Below are positions 8,912 through 18,399 of a stretch of DNA of 33,360 nucleotides, one piece after another (within the stretch, counting starts at the first letter, position 1; the number at the start of each line of letters is the position of its first letter). The position numbers and the translations under genes were made by a program. This stretch comes from Chlorobiota bacterium. GTDB taxonomy: Bacteria > Bacteroidota > Bacteroidia > Bacteroidales > F082. The notes under the pieces are model-generated. The model searched no databases, was not told where the DNA came from, and saw only the letters and a program-made list of their open reading frames with translations. The stretch spans positions 1 to 33,360 of the forward strand of contig JAADID010000081.1 in NCBI GenBank assembly GCA_013151505.1, written 5' to 3'.

Positions 8912-10342
8912 CTATCTTTTCCCAAGCAGTACCACATTTTCCACATGATGCGTCTGCGGGAACATGTCCACCGGTTGCACTTTTTTCACTTCATACTTCT
9001 CATTAAGCAGGGCAATGTCCCTGGCCTGCGTAGCGGGGTTACAACTTACATAGATGATCTTTTGCGGTCCGGCGATCAGCATTTGCCGAACCACTTTCTG
9101 ATGCATTCCTGCCCGCGGCGGGTCGGTAACGATGATATCCGGTTTACCCTGGGTGGCAAAGAATTCTTCATCAAGCAAACCGGCCAGATCACCGGAATAA
9201 AATTCCACATTGTCAATGGCATTCAGTTTCATGTTTTCTCTGGCGTCCCTGACCGCATCCTCCAAATATTCCACACCGATCACCCTTTTAACCGCTCTTG
9301 AAATAAATGCGGCAATAGTTCCTGTCCCGGTGTATAGATCATAAACCAGTTCATTCCCCTGAAACTCAGCAAATTCAAAAGCCGTTTTGTACAATTTGAA
9401 GGCTTGTTCCGGGTTGGTCTGATAAAATGATACCGGCCCCACCTTGAACCTGAACGGCGGTTCACCTTCAACAGGCGAAGGCATCGTCTCCATGATGAAA
9501 GGTTTGCCTTTGAACAGTTTGATCTCCAGGTCAGAGATCGTATCGTTTTTCTTTTCGTTCACCACATACATCAGCGAGGTGATCTCCGGGAAACGTTCAG
9601 CGACAAAATCCATCACATCAGCAATTTCATTGCTTTCATGGCCAAAAACCACAATCACCATCAGGTCGCCGGTCACTGCCGTGCGGATGATCAGGTTCCG
9701 CAGAAACCCTTCCTGGCTTCTGACATTGTAAAAGGAAAGCCCGTGTTCCAAAGCATATTTTTTAACTTCTACCCGGATATCGTTTGAGGGGTCTTTCTGA
9801 AGATAACAATGTTCTATATCCAGTATCTTGTCAAACATCCCCGGCAGGTGAAAACCGAGGCCGTTGGTGTTTTCGGGACCTCCCTCCTCTTTTGAAGTAT
9901 CCAGTTCGGTCAGCCATCGCCTGTCGGAAAAGGTGAACTCCAGCTTATTGCGGTAGTAGTATGGTTTGTCGGAACCCAGGATAGGCATCACATCGGGGTA
10001 AGGCACTTTGGCAATCCTTTCCAGCGCATCCCTCACCTGTTTCTGTTTGAAGGCCAGTTGATACTGATAATCTATGTGCTGCCACTTGCAACCGCCGCAC
10101 AGGCCGAAGTGCGAACATTCCGGTTCCACACGGTATTCCGATTTTTTATGGAGATGGACAATCCGGGCTTCGTAATAATTTTTCCGTTTTTTAAACACCT
10201 GCACATCCGCCACATCGCCCGTAGCGGCAAAAGGGACAAACACAACCCGCTCGTTGTACCTTCCGACGGCTTTCCCCTCGGCGCCTACATCAACGATCTC
10301 CAGCTTCTCAATAAAAGGTAATGGTTTTTTTCTTCTCGCCAT
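8912..10342 (-). CDS. rlmD: 23S rRNA (uracil-5-)-methyltransferase, RlmD/RumA family
   Basis: This 476-residue TrmA-family enzyme methylates C5 of a uridine in RNA, most likely U1939 of 23S rRNA, using SAM. An N-terminal TRAM domain (about residues 8-65) is followed by four Cys for a 4Fe-4S cluster: Cys76, Cys82, Cys85 and Cys179. The SAM site is VYDLYTGTGT near 333-342, DPPRAGMH lies at 407-414, and the catalytic Cys434 is in VSCNPATQARD. The ending DMFPQTHHVE is typical. Family members also include RlmC and TrmA; the cluster and TRAM domain favour RlmD or an RlmCD-like dual enzyme. A clear promoter box precedes it on the minus strand (10361-10368). Confidence 0.93.
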   Translation of the reverse strand: MARRKKPLPFIEKLEIVDVGAEGKAVGRYNERVVFVPFAATGDVADVQVFKKRKNYYEARIVHLHKKSEYRVEPECSHFGLCGGCKWQHIDYQYQLAFKQKQVRDALERIAKVPYPDVMPILGSDKPYYYRNKLEFTFSDRRWLTELDTSKEEGGPENTNGLGFHLPGMFDKILDIEHCYLQKDPSNDIRVEVKKYALEHGLSFYNVRSQEGFLRNLIIRTAVTGDLMVIVVFGHESNEIADVMDFVAERFPEITSLMYVVNEKKNDTISDLEIKLFKGKPFIMETMPSPVEGEPPFRFKVGPVSFYQTNPEQAFKLYKTAFEFAEFQGNELVYDLYTGTGTIAAFISRAVKRVIGVEYLEDAVRDARENMKLNAIDNVEFYSGDLAGLLDEEFFATQGKPDIIVTDPPRAGMHQKVVRQMLIAGPQKIIYVSCNPATQARDIALLNEKYEVKKVQPVDMFPQTHHVENVVLLGKR

Positions 10343-10456: not shown

Positions 10457-11661
10457 TTAAAACGCCACCTGGAACCGCATCTGGTAAATGTTTGCAAACC
10501 CCTGGTTTCCCACATCGGAATAGATATAATTGAACATAACCCGCACGGCAGGGTTCAGGTACCAGTTCAACCCGGCAGTGATATCCTGCATGCTGCCGCC
10601 CCGCAAATCTTTGTCGTTCAGATTGATTGATGAATATCTCAAACTAATCTCAAAAGCTCCCCACCCCCCTTTTCCAAGGTTCCTTTTCGGGGCTAACCTC
10701 CCGAAAGCCGTTTTCTTCTGGCTGTAGTTTTTGTGTTCTCCTGTGATGAACCAGCTTATAATCGCATATCCCGCATTGTAATAATAAGAGGTGAAATTTG
10801 TATTCATAGACGGGGATGGGACAACTTTTGTCGTCATATATTCACCCTGGAATGACAGCGGACCGAAAATAAACACAAATTCCGAACCCATAACCTCTGC
10901 GGTTTTGGTTTCTTTTACAGAAAGCGTAACATATTTTGGTGTCAGATGGGCTTCCGGTCTGTCGTTCAATATAAGTAAACGGTTGTCGTTAAACTGGTGT
11001 TCGTAAGCCACACCAAGATGCATGACAGTATACCATCTGCCATCCGGTTTGTAAATGGGTTGGCCTGCTACCCTGAAAGTCAGACGATACTGGTTACCCA
11101 GATAAAGACCAACATTCCTTGTTGGAAAGAAATAGCCGGCATACCATGAAAAGCGTTTGTTAAACTGATGATTATAAACCATCGCACCCAGGTCACGCTC
11201 CGGTGTGAAAGCATCGGTAAGTGAGCGTTCCATCAGTGTAATGTCATTGGAACTGGTTAACAATTCAAAACCAAAAGGTTGCTTGAAATGTCCGACCCTG
11301 ATATGCCCAACACCCGGTATTTTTGTCAACTCAATGTAAGCGTCTTTCACCCCGGCATCACCCCGTGCAAAATCAAATTGCATTTTAAACTTCACATTAC
11401 CGAATAATATCCCCGAAGTAAAAAACCTTAATCGCCTGAATTCGCTACCGTTCATCGCCGGGAAATTTTCATCCAGCACATCATTTTGATTGATCATCAT
11501 GATGTCATACTGAATCGTCCCCCGATCTTTATTTTAAACTGATCATCAGCACGCTGAAACTGAAGACCTTTGTTCCATTTAATATTCCACTCGTGTGAAG
11601 ATTGCGCAAATAATACAGTGGCTGCCGAAAATATCAGAAAAAATAAAATTGTTTTTCTCAT
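10457..11661 (-). pseudogene. Phosphate-selective porin (OprO/OprP-type) with an N-terminal frameshift
   Basis: Two reading frames make one porin. Translation from ATG 11661 (or in-frame ATG 11670) gives a signal peptide MRKTILFFLIFSAATVLFAQ and a mature start ending FKIKIGG, then shifts into a short tail and stops at 11497-11499. The remaining 347 residues, read from about 11518 in another frame, carry the beta-barrel and end in VAF, with the terminal Phe usual for outer-membrane barrels. The break lies in a G5 run followed by ACGATT (minus strand, plus 11513-11523). Adding one base after CG gives IGGRIQYD, the expected family sequence, and a protein of about 401 residues, normal for this family. 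It may be a real pseudogene, a sequencing indel or a switchable run. Taken alone, the downstream frame would start at ATG 11500 without a signal peptide. Substrate preference (phosphate or other anion) is not provable here. Confidence 0.85.
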
Positions 11662-11680
11662 TGTATTCATTTTCGGGGTA

Positions 11681-11688
11681 CAAAAATA
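11681..11688 (-). promoter_or_regulatory. Candidate -7 box for the porin gene
   Basis: On the minus strand this reads TATTTTTG, an exact TAnnTTTG. A TTTG lies 14 bases upstream (plus 11703-11706), shorter than the usual 19-21. Its position, about 20 bases from ATG 11661, favours that start over ATG 11670. Confidence 0.45.
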
Positions 11689-11733
11689 TATTTTTGGGAA
11701 AGCAAAACGGGATACCGTTTATTATCTTTATGT

Positions 11734-11741
11734 TAACTTTG
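11734..11741 (+). promoter_or_regulatory. -7 box of the NAD(P)HX repair gene
   Basis: TAACTTTG is an exact TAnnTTTG box, 16 bases before the ATG at 11758. No convincing -33 element was found. It is divergent from the porin promoter in the same intergenic region of roughly 95 bases. Confidence 0.55.
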
Positions 11742-11757
11742 TGAAAAGTTCTCAACA

Positions 11758-13269
11758 ATGAAAATACTACCGGTTGATAAAATCAGAGAGGCAGATGCCT
11801 ATACGATAAAAAACGAACCCATTGCTTCCATTGACCTGATGGAAAGGGCAGCCAACCAGTTGTTTAAATGGATCAGAAAACGCGTTGACCGCACGCATGT
11901 CATTCATATATTTGCAGGTCTGGGAAACAATGGCGGCGACGGGCTTGCCCTGTCGCGGATGTTGTCAAAAAAAGGATATGATGTAAAAGTTTATCTTATC
12001 AGGTATTCTGATAAAACATCTGAAGATTTTGGTATCAATTTTGATCGGCTTCCCGAAAAAATCCAAAATAAAAATATTACTGATATAAAGGATGGCGATC
12101 CTTTGCCCGAAATAGGTGAAAATGATATCATCGTGGATGCCATCTTCGGTTCCGGCCTGGCTCGGCCTGTCAAAGGATTTATTGGTAAAGTAGTGGAACA
12201 CATTAACAGTCAGCCGGCAGTCAAAATTTCCATTGACATCCCGTCAGGGCTTTTTGCCGACAGCCATTCCGACCCCAAAGAGGGCGCCATCGTCAGCGCC
12301 GATTACACATTGAGTTTTCAGTTTCCGAAACTTGCGTTTTTATTGCCTGAAAACGATCATTTTACCGGACAATGGCATGTATTGGATATCGGGTTGATGG
12401 CGGAATATATCAACGAGGTAAAGGTTAGCGAGTTTTACATGCAGAAACGGGATATTACCCCTATGCTGAAACAACGGCGGATTTTTTCGCACAAAGGCAC
12501 ATTTGGACATGCGCTGCTTATTGCCGGCAGTTACGGAAAGATGGGAGCTGCCATTCTGGCTTCCAAAGGATGCCTGCGGTCAGGTGTCGGACTGTTGCAT
12601 ACGCACATCCCCAAAGTGGGATATTCCATCATGCAAACCGCCACACCCGAGACCATGCTGAGTATTGACCGCTATGAGAATTACTTTTCAGAAGTCCCCG
12701 ACCTCGGTATGTATAATGCAGTAGGCATCGGACCGGGTCTTGGCATGGAACACCAGTCGCAAATGGCCTTGAAACTATTGATCCAGAATTACAAAAACCC
12801 CATCGTCTTTGATGCGGATGCATTGAACATCCTGGCAGAAAACAAGACCTGGCTTTCCTGGCTTCCGCCGCACAGTGTTCTCACCCCCCACCCCAAAGAG
12901 TTTGAACGGCTTGCAGGCAAATGGTCGGATGATTATGATAAGCTGAAAAAACTACGTGATTTCAGCTCGAAGTTCGGTGTGTATGTTGTATTGAAAGGAG
13001 CTTACACGGCCATCTGTTTCCCGGATAAAACCATTTATTTCAATTCCACAGGCAATCCGGGAATGGCTACTGCAGGCAGCGGGGATGTGCTCACAGGTAT
13101 GATCACAGGATTGCTTGCACAAGACTATACCCCCGGTGTGGCTGCCGTCATCGGTGTATATCTTCACGGCCTGGCCGGAGATCTGGCGGCCAGAAAGAAG
13201 GGACAGGAAGCCATGTTGGCAGGGGACATCATCGAAAACATAGGAAAAGCTTTCAAAAAGACAAGGTAA
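11758..13269 (+). CDS. nnr: Bifunctional NAD(P)H-hydrate epimerase / ADP-dependent NAD(P)H-hydrate dehydratase
   Basis: This 503-residue two-domain enzyme repairs NADHX and NADPHX, the hydrated damage products of NAD(P)H. The N-terminal half (YjeF_N, epimerase) has GLGNNGGDG at residues 55-62 (start of the family's nucleotide-binding loop), DAIFGSGL, and SIDIPSG in the middle. The C-terminal half (ribokinase-like dehydratase, YjeF_C) has HKGTFGHALLIAGS near 245, GPGLG near 328, DADALN near 355, LTPHPKEF near 380, and the ATP-site motif NPGMATAGSGD ending at Asp443. Both domains look complete. The fused arrangement is common in bacteria. It starts next to an exact TAnnTTTG box and diverges from the porin. 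It acts in the cytoplasm. Confidence 0.95.
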   Translation: MKILPVDKIREADAYTIKNEPIASIDLMERAANQLFKWIRKRVDRTHVIHIFAGLGNNGGDGLALSRMLSKKGYDVKVYLIRYSDKTSEDFGINFDRLPEKIQNKNITDIKDGDPLPEIGENDIIVDAIFGSGLARPVKGFIGKVVEHINSQPAVKISIDIPSGLFADSHSDPKEGAIVSADYTLSFQFPKLAFLLPENDHFTGQWHVLDIGLMAEYINEVKVSEFYMQKRDITPMLKQRRIFSHKGTFGHALLIAGSYGKMGAAILASKGCLRSGVGLLHTHIPKVGYSIMQTATPETMLSIDRYENYFSEVPDLGMYNAVGIGPGLGMEHQSQMALKLLIQNYKNPIVFDADALNILAENKTWLSWLPPHSVLTPHPKEFERLAGKWSDDYDKLKKLRDFSSKFGVYVVLKGAYTAICFPDKTIYFNSTGNPGMATAGSGDVLTGMITGLLAQDYTPGVAAVIGVYLHGLAGDLAARKKGQEAMLAGDIIENIGKAFKKTR

Positions 13270-13312
13270 ACTTCTTTTTTATCAGCTACCCGGCCCACCA
13301 GGGCAGGGTCAT

Positions 13313-13334
13313 AAAAAAGGCGGCCAGAGCCGCC
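13313..13334 (-). terminator. Rho-independent terminator of the GroES-like gene
   Basis: Read on the minus strand, GGCGGC-TCTG-GCCGCC (plus 13319-13334) is followed by TTTTTT (plus 13313-13318). It begins 8 bases after the stop codon at 13342-13344. It may also slow convergent transcription from the NAD(P)HX repair gene. Confidence 0.8.
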
Positions 13335-13341
13335 TCTACTT

Positions 13342-13629
13342 TTATATCTTTTCGGTTTCGACCACCTTGGCAAGCAGGTCGGCATAAGGCATCATCAGGT
13401 ATTTGTTACCTTCAAACTCAAACTCGGTTCCTGAATATTTTTTGAAAAATACAATGTCACCTACCGAGATGCCCGGGTTTTCAATATTGCCAATGGCAAC
13501 CACCCTGGCGTATTGCGGTTTCTCTTTGGCTGTATCGGGAATAATGATGCCCGAAGGAGTCTTCTGCTGTTCTTCTTCCTGCGTCATGTCCAGTAAAACA
13601 TTCTCGTTTAAAGGCTGTAATTCTTTCAT
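13342..13629 (-). CDS. GroES-like co-chaperonin, encoded without a groEL partner
   Basis: The 95-residue protein has the Cpn10 fold marks: LQPLNENVLLDM at the N-terminus, the mobile-loop region around SGIIIPDTAKEKPQ, VVAIGN, VGDIVFFKKYSGTE, and a final DLLAKV. GroES caps the GroEL chamber; the mobile loop here keeps the hydrophobic III triplet that docks on GroEL. Length is normal. It diverges from the usual GroES in the N-terminal and roof parts, and no groEL gene is next to it. It is therefore probably a second, divergent co-chaperonin, with a regular groESL pair elsewhere (inferred). It lies 65 bases downstream of the thioredoxin-glutaredoxin gene on the same strand and ends in a clear terminator, so the two may form one transcript. 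Confidence 0.85.
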   Translation of the reverse strand: MKELQPLNENVLLDMTQEEEQQKTPSGIIIPDTAKEKPQYARVVAIGNIENPGISVGDIVFFKKYSGTEFEFEGNKYLMMPYADLLAKVVETEKI

Positions 13630-13694
13630 CTTTTATCTTATTTAATGTTAGTTAATAATTTTCCAATATTTATTTGACTCTATTTCATTCATTT

Positions 13695-14279
13695 CTAATT
13701 GATCCCCAGCAGGGTATTGATCCGGGCTTTGTCAAATCCAACAATCACCTCGCCGTTGATATCCGTCTGCGGAACTCCCTGCTGTCCACTGCGCCTCACC
13801 ATGGCTTCGGCAGCTTTCTGGTCTTTTGAAACATCAATATCCCGGTAACGGATACCATATTTGTCAAGATGACGTTTCAGGGCATTGCACCACGTACAAC
13901 TCGGTGTTGAATAAACGGTCACACGTTTTTGAGGTTTACCGTCACCATCTGTTTTTGCCGTAAATAAAACACTTTCGAACAATGACTTGTAAAAACCTTC
14001 ATCATTGCATCCCTTAACGGATTTCACAAAATTCTTTCCTTCAAAAACCAGCAATGAAGGCGCTGAAGTGATATTATATTTCGGATGGATATCGCGGACA
14101 GTCGTTACATCTGCCGCCAGTACATTCACATCCTTCACTTCACCGGCTGCCTCTTCTACCCCCGCATAACTGCAATCGCTTGCTTCCGACCCTTTCTTGT
14201 ACAACAGCACGTAGTTTTTCTTATCCTTCGCCAGATACTTCTGCATTTCATCAAACGAATGAATCTCTTTCACTTTCAT
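13695..14279 (-). CDS. Thioredoxin-like / glutaredoxin fusion protein
   Basis: Two thioredoxin folds are joined in 194 residues. The first (about 1-105) has the fold pattern and the cis-proline segment TSAPSLLVF (Pro74), but the active-site CxxC is replaced by SEASDCSYA with only Cys36; another Cys is at 91. The second (about 117-194) is a glutaredoxin/NrdH-like domain with the active site CTWC (Cys128, Cys131), the GVP cis-proline at 170 and a final GFDKARIN. No signal peptide is visible, so it is cytoplasmic. The C-terminal domain should be redox-active, while the N-terminal domain may bind a partner or act with a single Cys, as in bacillithiol- or monothiol-type chemistry. The functional target is unknown. 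It is followed by the GroES-like gene. Confidence 0.85.
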   Translation of the reverse strand: MKVKEIHSFDEMQKYLAKDKKNYVLLYKKGSEASDCSYAGVEEAAGEVKDVNVLAADVTTVRDIHPKYNITSAPSLLVFEGKNFVKSVKGCNDEGFYKSLFESVLFTAKTDGDGKPQKRVTVYSTPSCTWCNALKRHLDKYGIRYRDIDVSKDQKAAEAMVRRSGQQGVPQTDINGEVIVGFDKARINTLLGIN

Positions 14280-14577
14280 AATCCAAAAAATTTAACGTGT
14301 CTTAATCAAATGATATGCCAAGGCAAAATTACCTCTTTTACAAGTGCCGAAATTGCAGTTATGACAAAATTTCACCTCTGGTGTTGGGGGATGAAATATG
14401 TGGGTATCGGGTAAAGGGGTATAAGGTATATAGGGGTATAGTGTGTCTTGTCCTGAAATAGGTTTACAAAAAAGTAAATTTTTTAGTCAATGAAATTTAT
14501 CCGACTGCATCAATTGCACCAACTGAATCAATTGCACCCAATACCTTTATACCTCTATACCCGTCCTTTATACCTTT
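14280..14577. other. Intergenic region with short tandem and inverted simple repeats
   Basis: No gene was found. Two copies of ATCAATTGCACC lie at 14509-14520 and 14527-14538 (period 18). GGTATA-rich phrases at about 14410-14443 and their complement (TATACC-rich) at about 14540-14577 face each other. If these pair, they would form a long imperfect AT-rich stem around the region. The methyltransferase gene ends directly at its right edge. Confidence 0.5.
14324..14331 (-). promoter_or_regulatory. -7 box of the thioredoxin-glutaredoxin gene
   Basis: On the minus strand this reads TAATTTTG, an exact TAnnTTTG, about 45 bases before the ATG at 14279. No clear -33 TTTG was found at the expected spacing. 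Confidence 0.5.
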
Positions 14578-15021
14578 TCAATATAAATACGGAAGCATCC
14601 GCTTCGTCCTCAACACATACGCTTTGTAGTCAGGAAATTGCTGATGTAACCGCTTTTCTTCATAAACGATTTTCAGCAACAAAACAATGATCAGCAGTAC
14701 GAATACACCCAGCCTCATCCATGAAAAATAATCAAAGACCAGGGGCAGAAGGGCAACCAACTGGGCAAGATACATGGGATGCCTGACCACGCTGTAAGGG
14801 CCGGTTGTTACCAACTGCCCGTTGGTTTTTGGCGTGGGCGTAATATTAAAATTCCCAATTCTGATCGTATAAATGGCTACAATCCCCAAAAATATACCCG
14901 CAGCTTCAATCAGGATACCCGAGTAATCATTGGCTATGGCTGGCGCCGATGAAAGCAGGTATATCAGGGAGGCCAATTGTAAAAAAACAAGTAAATAAGG
15001 ATATATTTTTTCTTTGAACAT
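14578..15021 (-). CDS. Isoprenylcysteine carboxyl methyltransferase-like membrane methyltransferase
   Basis: The 147-residue protein has four likely membrane segments and the signature of the ICMT/phospholipid N-methyltransferase superfamily. LVTTGPYSVVRHPMYLAQ lies in the middle (SAM-binding RHPxY). Near the end come EEKRLHQQFPDYKAYVLRTKR (EE and the PDY..Y pattern) and LPYLY. It is an inner-membrane enzyme that should methylate a lipid or small substrate with SAM; the true substrate of bacterial members is usually unknown. It is shorter than eukaryotic ICMT but typical for bacterial homologues. It diverges from the citrate lyase locus, and no lipid-biosynthesis neighbour helps assignment. 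Confidence 0.85.
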   Translation of the reverse strand: MFKEKIYPYLLVFLQLASLIYLLSSAPAIANDYSGILIEAAGIFLGIVAIYTIRIGNFNITPTPKTNGQLVTTGPYSVVRHPMYLAQLVALLPLVFDYFSWMRLGVFVLLIIVLLLKIVYEEKRLHQQFPDYKAYVLRTKRMLPYLY

Positions 15022-15133
15022 GTCACCCGGAATTAAAAACCGGCTCCGGGATTAAGTTATGTTGCAAGTAGAGAGAAAGTTAAAAATTCCGGAACCGGCA
15101 CACAAAGGTACATGAAATTTTTCTTTCAGATAA

Positions 15134-15165
15134 TTTAGAAATCAATTAAACTGATTTTACCTTTG
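15134..15165 (+). promoter_or_regulatory. Promoter of the citrate lyase locus
   Basis: TACCTTTG (15158-15165) is an exact TAnnTTTG -7 box. TTTAG (15134-15138) lies 19 bases upstream and resembles the TTTG -33 element. The ATG at 15196 is 30 bases downstream of the box. Confidence 0.6.
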
Positions 15166-15195
15166 CAATAATTACAAAAGCTAAAAACCACCTTT

Positions 15196-16420
15196 ATGAA
15201 AAATACAGGAGAAGCAGGAAACCGGGGGCCGGATGTTCGTTCCGACTGCCATGCCGAAATAGAGATGACATCATCAGGAGGTATAATTCTGGAAATCAAG
15301 AGCAAAGTTAAAACACTTTTCGGTAAATCCATCGAAAAACTGGCACGCGACATCCTGAATTATTTTGACATAAAAAATGCACGGCTGACGATTGAGGATG
15401 CCGGGGCGCTTGAACTGGTCATTGCCGCACGCATGGAAGCTGCCATTAAAAAAGCAATGAAAACCGAAAAGGAATATCTTTTGCCGGTGATCAAAGAAAA
15501 CACGACTGCCAGTAACAAGGATGATTTCAGGTTCTCGCGATTGTACCTGCCGGGAAACAGCCCCAAACTGATGATCAATGCAGGGATTCACAATCCCAAC
15601 GGAATTATACGGAATTATCCTTGACCTTGAGGATTCGGTGTCGGCTGACAAAAAGTTCGAAGCGCGTTTTCTGGTCAGAAATGCGTTGAGGAGCATGAAT
15701 TTTTACGGTGCCGAAAGGATGGTGCGCATCAACCAGATACCCGGGGGACTGGATGACCTTAAATACTGCATACCGCATCATGTAAACCTTATCCTCGTTC
15801 CCAAGTGCGAACAGGCATCTGATATTCATAAGGTAAACGAAGACGAAGAGATTGACAGGATAAAGAAAGAACACAATACCGGTTATCCTGTCTGGCTTAT
15901 GCCGATCATCGAAAGTGCGCTGGGTGTTCTCAATGCTTACGCCATTGCATCGGCAGCTCAAAATGTGGTCGCACTGGCAATCGGACTGGAAGATTATACG
16001 GCTGATATCGGGACCAGACGCACTGACGAAGGCAAAGAATCATTTTTTGCCCGGAGTATGGTCGTTAATGCAGCACGGGCTGCCGGTATCCAACCCATTG
16101 ATTCCGTTTTCTCGGATGTTTCGGACATGGAGGCACTGGCAAAGAATGTCCAGGCATCCAAAGCACTGGGATTTGACGGGATGGGCTGTATTCATCCACG
16201 GCAGATCAAAGTGATTCATGAGAATTTTGCTCCTGCAGATGATGAAATCGAAAAAGCCAAAAAGATCGTTCTTGCGTTCAAAGAGGCCGAAGCCAAGGGA
16301 CTGGGTGTGGTTTCGCTGGGCTCAAAAATGATCGATCCACCGGTGGTTAAAAGAGCGCAAAGAACGATTCGGATAGCTGTGGATGTGGGAAAACTGGATG
16401 AGAACTGGATGAATAAATAA
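15196..16420 (+). pseudogene. citDE: Citrate lyase acyl carrier (CitD)-beta subunit (CitE) fusion, frameshifted by a 10-bp duplication
   Basis: The first frame (15196-15624) starts with a CitD-like acyl carrier domain, about residues 5-95 (GPDVRSDCHAEIEM, then IEKLARDILNYF, then DAGALELVIAARMEAA). Ser16 is the best candidate for the phosphoribosyl-dephospho-CoA site. A linker leads to the CitE start RLYLPGNSPKL. At 15599-15618 the decamer ACGGAATTAT occurs twice in tandem and pushes translation to a TGA at 15622. Removing one copy restores PNGIILDLEDSV and joins the frame ending at 16420, giving exactly 405 codons (404 residues). The CitE part keeps IIESALG and GLEDYTADIG with the expected Glu and Asp residues. 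CitE cleaves citryl-ACP to oxaloacetate and acetyl-ACP. An independent start at ATG 15578 would lack the first strand of the TIM barrel. Whether the break is natural or an assembly error is open. Confidence 0.88.
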
Positions 16421-16467
16421 TGACAACCAAATAAAACATCATTACATTTATAATTCGCTATCATTTT

Positions 16468-16487
16468 CCCTGACCTTCAGGTCAGGG
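16468..16487. repeat. REP-like hairpin between citDE and citF
   Basis: CCCTGACC, loop TTCA, GGTCAGGG: a perfect 8-base stem. It matches the hairpin at 18339-18358 except for one paired change (A:T to C:G). It lies 25 bases before the citF start and may affect the citDE-citF transcript. Confidence 0.7.
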
Positions 16488-16512
16488 CAAGAGGGTAAAA
16501 AAGAAAGATTCT

Positions 16513-18072
16513 ATGAAAAAATACGATAAACTAACTAAAAACGCAGCCGGACGCATGGTCCCCGCCATTATAAACGGAGAAGAACATATTCCCTTTCAGG
16601 GAGTAGGAAAATACAAGCCCGAAGGCAGGAAATATGCACCCAGAATAGCAAGTTGTACCGACTATCCCGATGACGGTAACAAAACGGTCGGAAGTTTGAA
16701 AGAAGCGCTGATCAAAGCGGGATTAAAAGACGGGATGACCATCTCAACACATCACCACTTCCGCAACGGCGACCTCATAGCCAATCAGATATTTGATATT
16801 GCCCACGAGTTGGGTATTAAAAATCTTCGCTGGTTTCCTTCGGCATCATTTCCCTGCCACGAACACCTGATCCCTTACCTTGAAGACGGGACCATCAACC
16901 GCATTGAAGGAAGTATGAACGGACCATTGGGAAAATTTGCCTCGGAAGGAAAAATGAAAGGAGTGGGTGTCCTGCGTTCACACGGTGGCCGCTACCAGGC
17001 CGTTCAGGACGGGGAAGTGGTGATTGACATCGCAGTGATCGCCGCCCCCACGGCAGACCCATTCGGCAATGCCAACGGTGTTTACGGAGATGCCGCCTGC
17101 GGACTACTGGGGTTTGCCCTTGCCGACTCACAATACGCTGAGAAAGTGATCGTTGTTACAGACAACCTGGTGCCGTTTCCTGCAATACCCTGGCAGATTC
17201 ACGGGAATTATGTGGATTACGTTGTGAAAGTGGACAAAGTGGGCATCCCGGAAAAGATCATTTCGGGCACGACCAAAATAACCAAAAGTCCCGACCGCTT
17301 GCTGATCGCCGAAATGACTGCAAAATTCTGCGAAGAAGCCGGCCTGATCTATGACGGATTTTCTTACCAGGCAGGAGCAGGCGGAACAGCACTGTCTATC
17401 GGGAACTACTTTGGTGACATTTTACGGAAAAATGGCTGGAAAGCCCGGTTCATTCGTGCAGGAAGCAACAAATATGCTGTCGAAATGCTGGAAGAAGGGT
17501 TGGTGGATTACATCCTCGATGGACAGACTTTCGACCTGGAAGGGGTGCGTTCCATGCGTGAAAATCCGAACCACGTGAACACTTCGCCTTTTACTTCTTA
17601 TAATTATCATGGCAAAGGGAATTTTGCTTCAATGGTGGACATTGTGGTTCTGGGAGCCACCGAAGTGGATGTGCATTTCAATGCCAATGTGGTTACCCAT
17701 TCCGACGGATATCTGCTTCATGGTATCGGCGGCTGGCAGAATTGCCTGTTCTCGAAATGCACGATTCTTCCCATTCCCCTGTTCAGGGACCGGATACCTG
17801 TTATCCGTGATGAGGTGACGACCCTTTGCGGGCCCGGAGAACTGATTGATGTCATTGTGACCGAAAGAGGGATCGCCATCAATCCTTTGAGAAAAGACCT
17901 GATCGAAAAAACAAAAAATTCAGGATTACCAATCAAGACCATCGAGCAGTTGAAAGAAGAAGCAGAGGCCATTTGCGGTGTTCCCGAAAAGCCGAAATTG
18001 TCAGACGAGATCATTGCCGTTATCAAATGGGTGGACGGAACGGTGATTGACGCGGTGAGGAAGGTGGAATAA
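16513..18072 (+). CDS. citF: Citrate lyase alpha subunit (citrate CoA-transferase)
   Basis: CitF transfers the acyl-carrier group from acetyl-ACP to citrate, forming citryl-ACP for CitE to cleave. The 519-residue protein is collinear with the family: AAGRMVPAIINGEEHIPFQG near the start, then THHHFRNGDLI, FPSASFPCHEHLIPYL, RSHGGRYQAV, APTADPFGNANG, DNLVPFPAIPWQIHG, YQAGAGGTALSIG, and VVTHSDGYLLHGIGGWQN. No break or missing block is visible. It follows citDE by 92 bases on the same strand, separated by a hairpin. The locus lacks citC (ligase), citX and citG (prosthetic-group enzymes), which must be elsewhere if the complex is active. Other anaerobe loci usually carry them nearby. Confidence 0.95.
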   Translation: MKKYDKLTKNAAGRMVPAIINGEEHIPFQGVGKYKPEGRKYAPRIASCTDYPDDGNKTVGSLKEALIKAGLKDGMTISTHHHFRNGDLIANQIFDIAHELGIKNLRWFPSASFPCHEHLIPYLEDGTINRIEGSMNGPLGKFASEGKMKGVGVLRSHGGRYQAVQDGEVVIDIAVIAAPTADPFGNANGVYGDAACGLLGFALADSQYAEKVIVVTDNLVPFPAIPWQIHGNYVDYVVKVDKVGIPEKIISGTTKITKSPDRLLIAEMTAKFCEEAGLIYDGFSYQAGAGGTALSIGNYFGDILRKNGWKARFIRAGSNKYAVEMLEEGLVDYILDGQTFDLEGVRSMRENPNHVNTSPFTSYNYHGKGNFASMVDIVVLGATEVDVHFNANVVTHSDGYLLHGIGGWQNCLFSKCTILPIPLFRDRIPVIRDEVTTLCGPGELIDVIVTERGIAINPLRKDLIEKTKNSGLPIKTIEQLKEEAEAICGVPEKPKLSDEIIAVIKWVDGTVIDAVRKVE

Positions 18073-18144: not shown

Positions 18145-18399
18145 AGTAAAAAGACCCTGAAATAAGGGCCCGCATCATGACATGACATATTAATGGCTAA
18201 AGCCGGTTTGATTTTCTTTTTTAATCACGGCGCTGAAGCACCGTGCAAAACGCAATGGCGGGATATTTTACTTCGACTTTTAAGCTTTTCTGGTTCACGC
18301 ATACAAGAGCAAAAAGATTTTTATCAATAGAAATTTTGCCCTGCCCTTCAGGGCAGGGATTTATAGTTTCAAATTCAATCTGGCTTTAGCCGTCAATAA
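18145..18399. repeat. Dispersed repeat element, copy 2
   Basis: This element matches copy 1 (2001-2189) in its left block: GACATGACA, ATTAATGGCTAAAGCCG with the inverted-repeat arm at 18190-18204, and the CACGGCGCT / AGCACCGTG hairpin at 18226-18245. Its middle differs: it is longer and carries the hairpin CCCTGCCC-TTCA-GGGCAGGG at 18339-18358 in place of the one in copy 1. The right arm GGCTTTAGCC is at 18382-18391, but its outer five bases have decayed. Confidence 0.8.

Follow-up and report, generated by a model that had tools for sequence, protein, structure and literature searches.

A frame-broken Porin_O_P gene from the draft genome of an uncultured Bacteroidales bacterium, probably split by a consensus or assembly error

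The stretch of DNA analysed here (the window; 33,360 nt, Chlorobiota bacterium, GCA_013151505.1, contig JAADID010000081.1, positions 1-33,360, forward strand) contains an ordinary porin gene of the Porin_O_P family whose reading frame is broken in the draft, most likely by a consensus or assembly error, a reading to which we give a probability of about 0.58. The source genome is an uncultured Bacteroidales draft (MAG) of 3.56 Mb in 348 contigs, estimated as 92.7% complete, of which the window is contig C334. Under the preferred reading, a single-copy and vertically inherited gene would have lost its frame in the draft through a one-base deletion, which would be one among several scattered indels in this MAG.

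A porin gene read in two frames

The sequence-only reading had described a one-base frameshift between a porin signal peptide and its barrel, and both the open reading frames and the single-frame relatives bear this out. As read, signal peptide and barrel lie in separate frames of the minus strand, one base out of step with each other. The signal-peptide frame begins at ATG 11661 (or 11670), the former start having been chosen through alignment to the closest relative, and its product (11670/11661..11497) reads MRKTILFFLIFSAATVLFAQSSHEWNIKWNKGLQFQRADDQFKIKIGGR followed by FSMTS and the stop. The barrel ORF (10457-11500, with its stop codon at 10457-10459) encodes 347 aa counted from the first ATG, and its open frame reaches upstream to IQYD. 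A coding-score scan favoured the barrel frame from about 11502 onward, before which the signal frame scored better than the barrel frame. With the signal peptide in the other frame, the barrel as read has no export signal, as had been claimed.

Table 1. Coordinates of the split porin gene, its neighbours and a second broken gene in the window
Feature	Position	Strand	Remark
Signal-peptide frame	11500..11661	-	Sec-type signal MRKTILFFLIFSAATVLFAQ and N-terminus to KIGGR, with a short out-of-frame tail; stop 11497-11499
Break point	11513..11523	-	one base shorter than all relatives directly after GGGGGACG
Porin_O_P barrel frame, IQYD... to stop	10457..11516	-	first in-frame ATG at 11500
NAD(P)H-hydrate dehydratase/epimerase (YjeF_N + Carb_kinase)	11758..13269	+	divergent neighbour, intact; order kept in the closest relative
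tRNA (uracil-5-)-methyltransferase family protein with TRAM domain	8912..10342	-	downstream neighbour, intact
Citrate lyase acyl-carrier/beta fusion CitD-CitE	15196..16420	+	second broken gene; 10-base near-tandem insertion near 15603-15612

The barrel matches the Pfam family PF07396 (Porin_O_P) with an E value of 2.8e-49 and 168.8 bits (gathering cut-off 20.9), and the match covers positions 24-370 of the 370-position profile, so that only the N-terminal part is missing from the barrel frame. Together with the intact orthologues, this match supports the earlier view that the gene, apart from the frameshift, is that of an ordinary porin about 400 residues long. In the PDB, a profile of the orthologues matched OprP (2O4V) and OprO (4RJW, 4RJX) of Pseudomonas aeruginosa with an E value of 4e-33, and the KIGGRIQYD stretch of the window pairs with FKLGGRLQAD of OprP in the alignment. 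In sequence the window gene is distant from OprP and OprO, and in the assembly, unlike them, it is broken by the loss of one base. The intact product would probably be an ordinary exported OprP/OprO-like porin with a presumed role in transport.

An AlphaFold2 model of an intact orthologue (L002) consists mostly of strands, with moderate confidence (mean pLDDT 70.9, pTM 0.70), and its first long strand spans residues 44-60. In the numbering of this orthologue the break point falls at residue 50 and the first barrel-frame ATG at residue 56; translation from this ATG would give a protein with neither the signal peptide nor most of the first strand. If the break is real, such a fragment would be expected to be non-functional in the outer membrane.

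Intact relatives and the position of the missing base

The comparison with orthologues that the sequence-only reading had proposed was carried out on loci that came from scans of related genomes and of genome contigs and had the N-terminal part present. The 27 near-full-length loci, some of them reached by two routes and about 21 of them distinct, all cross the K-x-GGR-x-Q-x-D stretch in a single open frame, with the signal peptide in frame with the barrel in each of them; the alignment over the break covers a subset of the 27. A family search of the window genome found a single Porin_O_P copy and no intact second copy, and a search for plasmid relatives found none. The split between signal peptide and barrel bears on the integrity of the window copy and not on its ancestry.

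The closest relative (L031, on contig JAOZMX010000160.1 of the Bacteroidales MAG GMC4_bin_2, G041:C36) has 79% amino-acid identity, and gene order is kept between window positions 10481-18067 and this genome. Its porin is intact across the site, unlike the window copy. The DNA leading into the break is identical in the two, including the five-G run ATCGGGGGACG, and the relative has one more base after ACG, which the window lacks directly after GGGGGACG. As the run is equal in both, the one-base deletion lies a few bases past it rather than inside it, and falls in the Arg codon that follows GGG GGA. The join site proposed earlier is therefore right as to the frameshift itself, but the G5 run is unchanged and the missing base lies three bases beyond it. 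Slippage within the G run was accordingly rejected, the run being identical in the intact relative.

Across 340 aligned codons, the barrel is 78.5% identical to that of the closest relative with a dN/dS of about 0.06 (a rough value, as dS is near saturation), similar to the values of intact neighbours (nnrD 0.05, glutaredoxin 0.065). Judged from these alignments, purifying selection is shown for both parts of the porin. The remaining 347 codons of the barrel contain no stop and no second indel or frame change, and this lack of decay means that the break is either very recent or not real.

The window also contains intergenic elements (2045-2189 and 18188-18398) flanked by the inverted repeats TTAATGGCTAAAGCC and GGCTTTAGCC(A/G)T(T/C)AA, which look like a dispersed palindromic repeat family. 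The genome contains 18 copies of their 14-base core TAATGGCTAAAGCC, compared with one of a reversed control, and two of the 18 lie at positions 10-23 of a contig (C18 and C253); stretches similar to these elements are also present in the genome of the closest relative.

Other frame breaks and the cause of the deletion

Further frame breaks in conserved genes, housekeeping genes among them, were found in the same assembly (citDE, recG, uvrC and an S41 peptidase). The citD-citE fusion, which comprises an ACP (PF06857) and an HpcH_HpaI (PF03328) domain, is split by the 10-base near-tandem insertion, in which CGGAATTATA adjoins CGGAATTATC; four relatives (G041, G002, G003 and G004) carry the gene intact, as a single frame of some 404 residues. 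Compared with genus members, recG has gained one base (L062 ~391, G000:C14), and uvrC has lost five bases and gained seven, the latter a near-tandem gain (L064 ~16074 and ~16321, G000:C16). Frame changes also appear to split two further genes (L058 ~13320 and L061 ~3738), those of a Tricorn_C1/S41 peptidase and of a large secreted protein, and no counterpart of the S41 peptidase locus was found in the four relatives searched. The breaks in recG, uvrC and the S41 peptidase come from a survey with a frame-switch HMM, its calls being then checked by homology, which covered 522 kb (15%) of this MAG and gives a lower bound, as the porin break itself was missed owing to the neutral coding score of the signal-peptide part. 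Most other calls of the HMM were ordinary adjacent or overlapping genes. The closest relative's genome was scanned as a control with the same crude HMM, giving raw calls, so this MAG may be no worse than its relatives.

The other frame-breaking indels in the same MAG favour a consensus or assembly error, and the cause of the porin indel is probably technical rather than biological. In recG and uvrC, both conserved repair genes, an assembly error accounts for the breaks more readily than a real loss does. Cooley and Wright (2024, PMC11017572) show that many supposed frameshift pseudogenes of public assemblies are errors of this kind, which are more common at low coverage and vary with coverage, platform and assembler. 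The window porin resembles such spurious pseudogenes, as a conserved gene that is broken yet free of decay and whose assembly has several such breaks, and it may be one of them. A sequencing indel, as the sequence-only reading had suggested, is one plausible cause, but not as a slip inside the G5 run. Against an assembly error, the near-tandem gains of 10 bases in citDE and of 7 in uvrC also look like natural replication slippage, and the site is outside any long homopolymer, the classic spot of sequencing indels.

The main rival is a real and recent one-base deletion that inactivated the porin in this strain or population, so that the gene would be a pseudogene of recent origin or a loss-of-function allele still segregating, which we regard as possible though not the probable course of events. 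Porins can be dispensable, a very young mutation would likewise leave no decay, and several genes of the same genome carry indels of the slippage type; it is the resemblance of the short tandem gains to natural slippage that keeps this rival in play. Against it, the broken recG and uvrC genes would demand several recent losses together, and the barrel has acquired neither a stop nor a second indel.

Recoding, switching and the standing of the window copy

A -1 ribosomal frameshift at GGG GGA, whether programmed or tolerated, would join both frames, and a glycine tRNA on GGA could re-pair with GGG, but this explanation is highly improbable. The signal-peptide frame reads AAG ATC GGG GGA CGA TTC and has no X XXY YYZ heptamer, the zero frame at the break offering only C GGG GGA and G GGA CGA. 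Folding of the downstream RNA (without pseudoknots) gave no sign of a stimulatory structure, with a z of -0.29 and 70 of 200 shuffled sequences folding as well. The relatives, one of which shares the G5 run, are all single-frame and need no shift. The suggestion of a slippery site is thus not supported, given the missing canonical heptamer, the unremarkable folding and the equal length of the run in an intact relative. A literature search found no report of frameshifts in Porin_O_P genes of Bacteroidetes.

Phase-variable on/off switching of the porin through slippage at the short G run is equally remote: the run adjoins the break, but the intact relative has one just as long, the missing base lies beyond it, five Gs are short for a phase-variable tract and a longer repeat is absent. 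We hold out hardly any prospect for a combined scheme in which the shorter gene is real and the porin is made through -1 slippage on GGG GGA or indel toggling, controlling outer-membrane permeability. Stop-start coupling through the ATGA overlap of the first-frame TGA with the barrel-frame ATG was taken as coincidence, because this ATG encodes part of the MM of IQYDIMM, which is also present in the closest relative, and a reinitiated barrel would lack the signal.

The finding is an ordinary one. For this MAG, gene losses (porin, citDE, recG, uvrC) should not be called from the base-level consensus without reads, and the gene is best annotated as a Porin_O_P porin carrying a frameshift of uncertain reality. 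If the break is a consensus or assembly error, as we favour, the gene would be intact in the living organism, which would make an ordinary exported porin.
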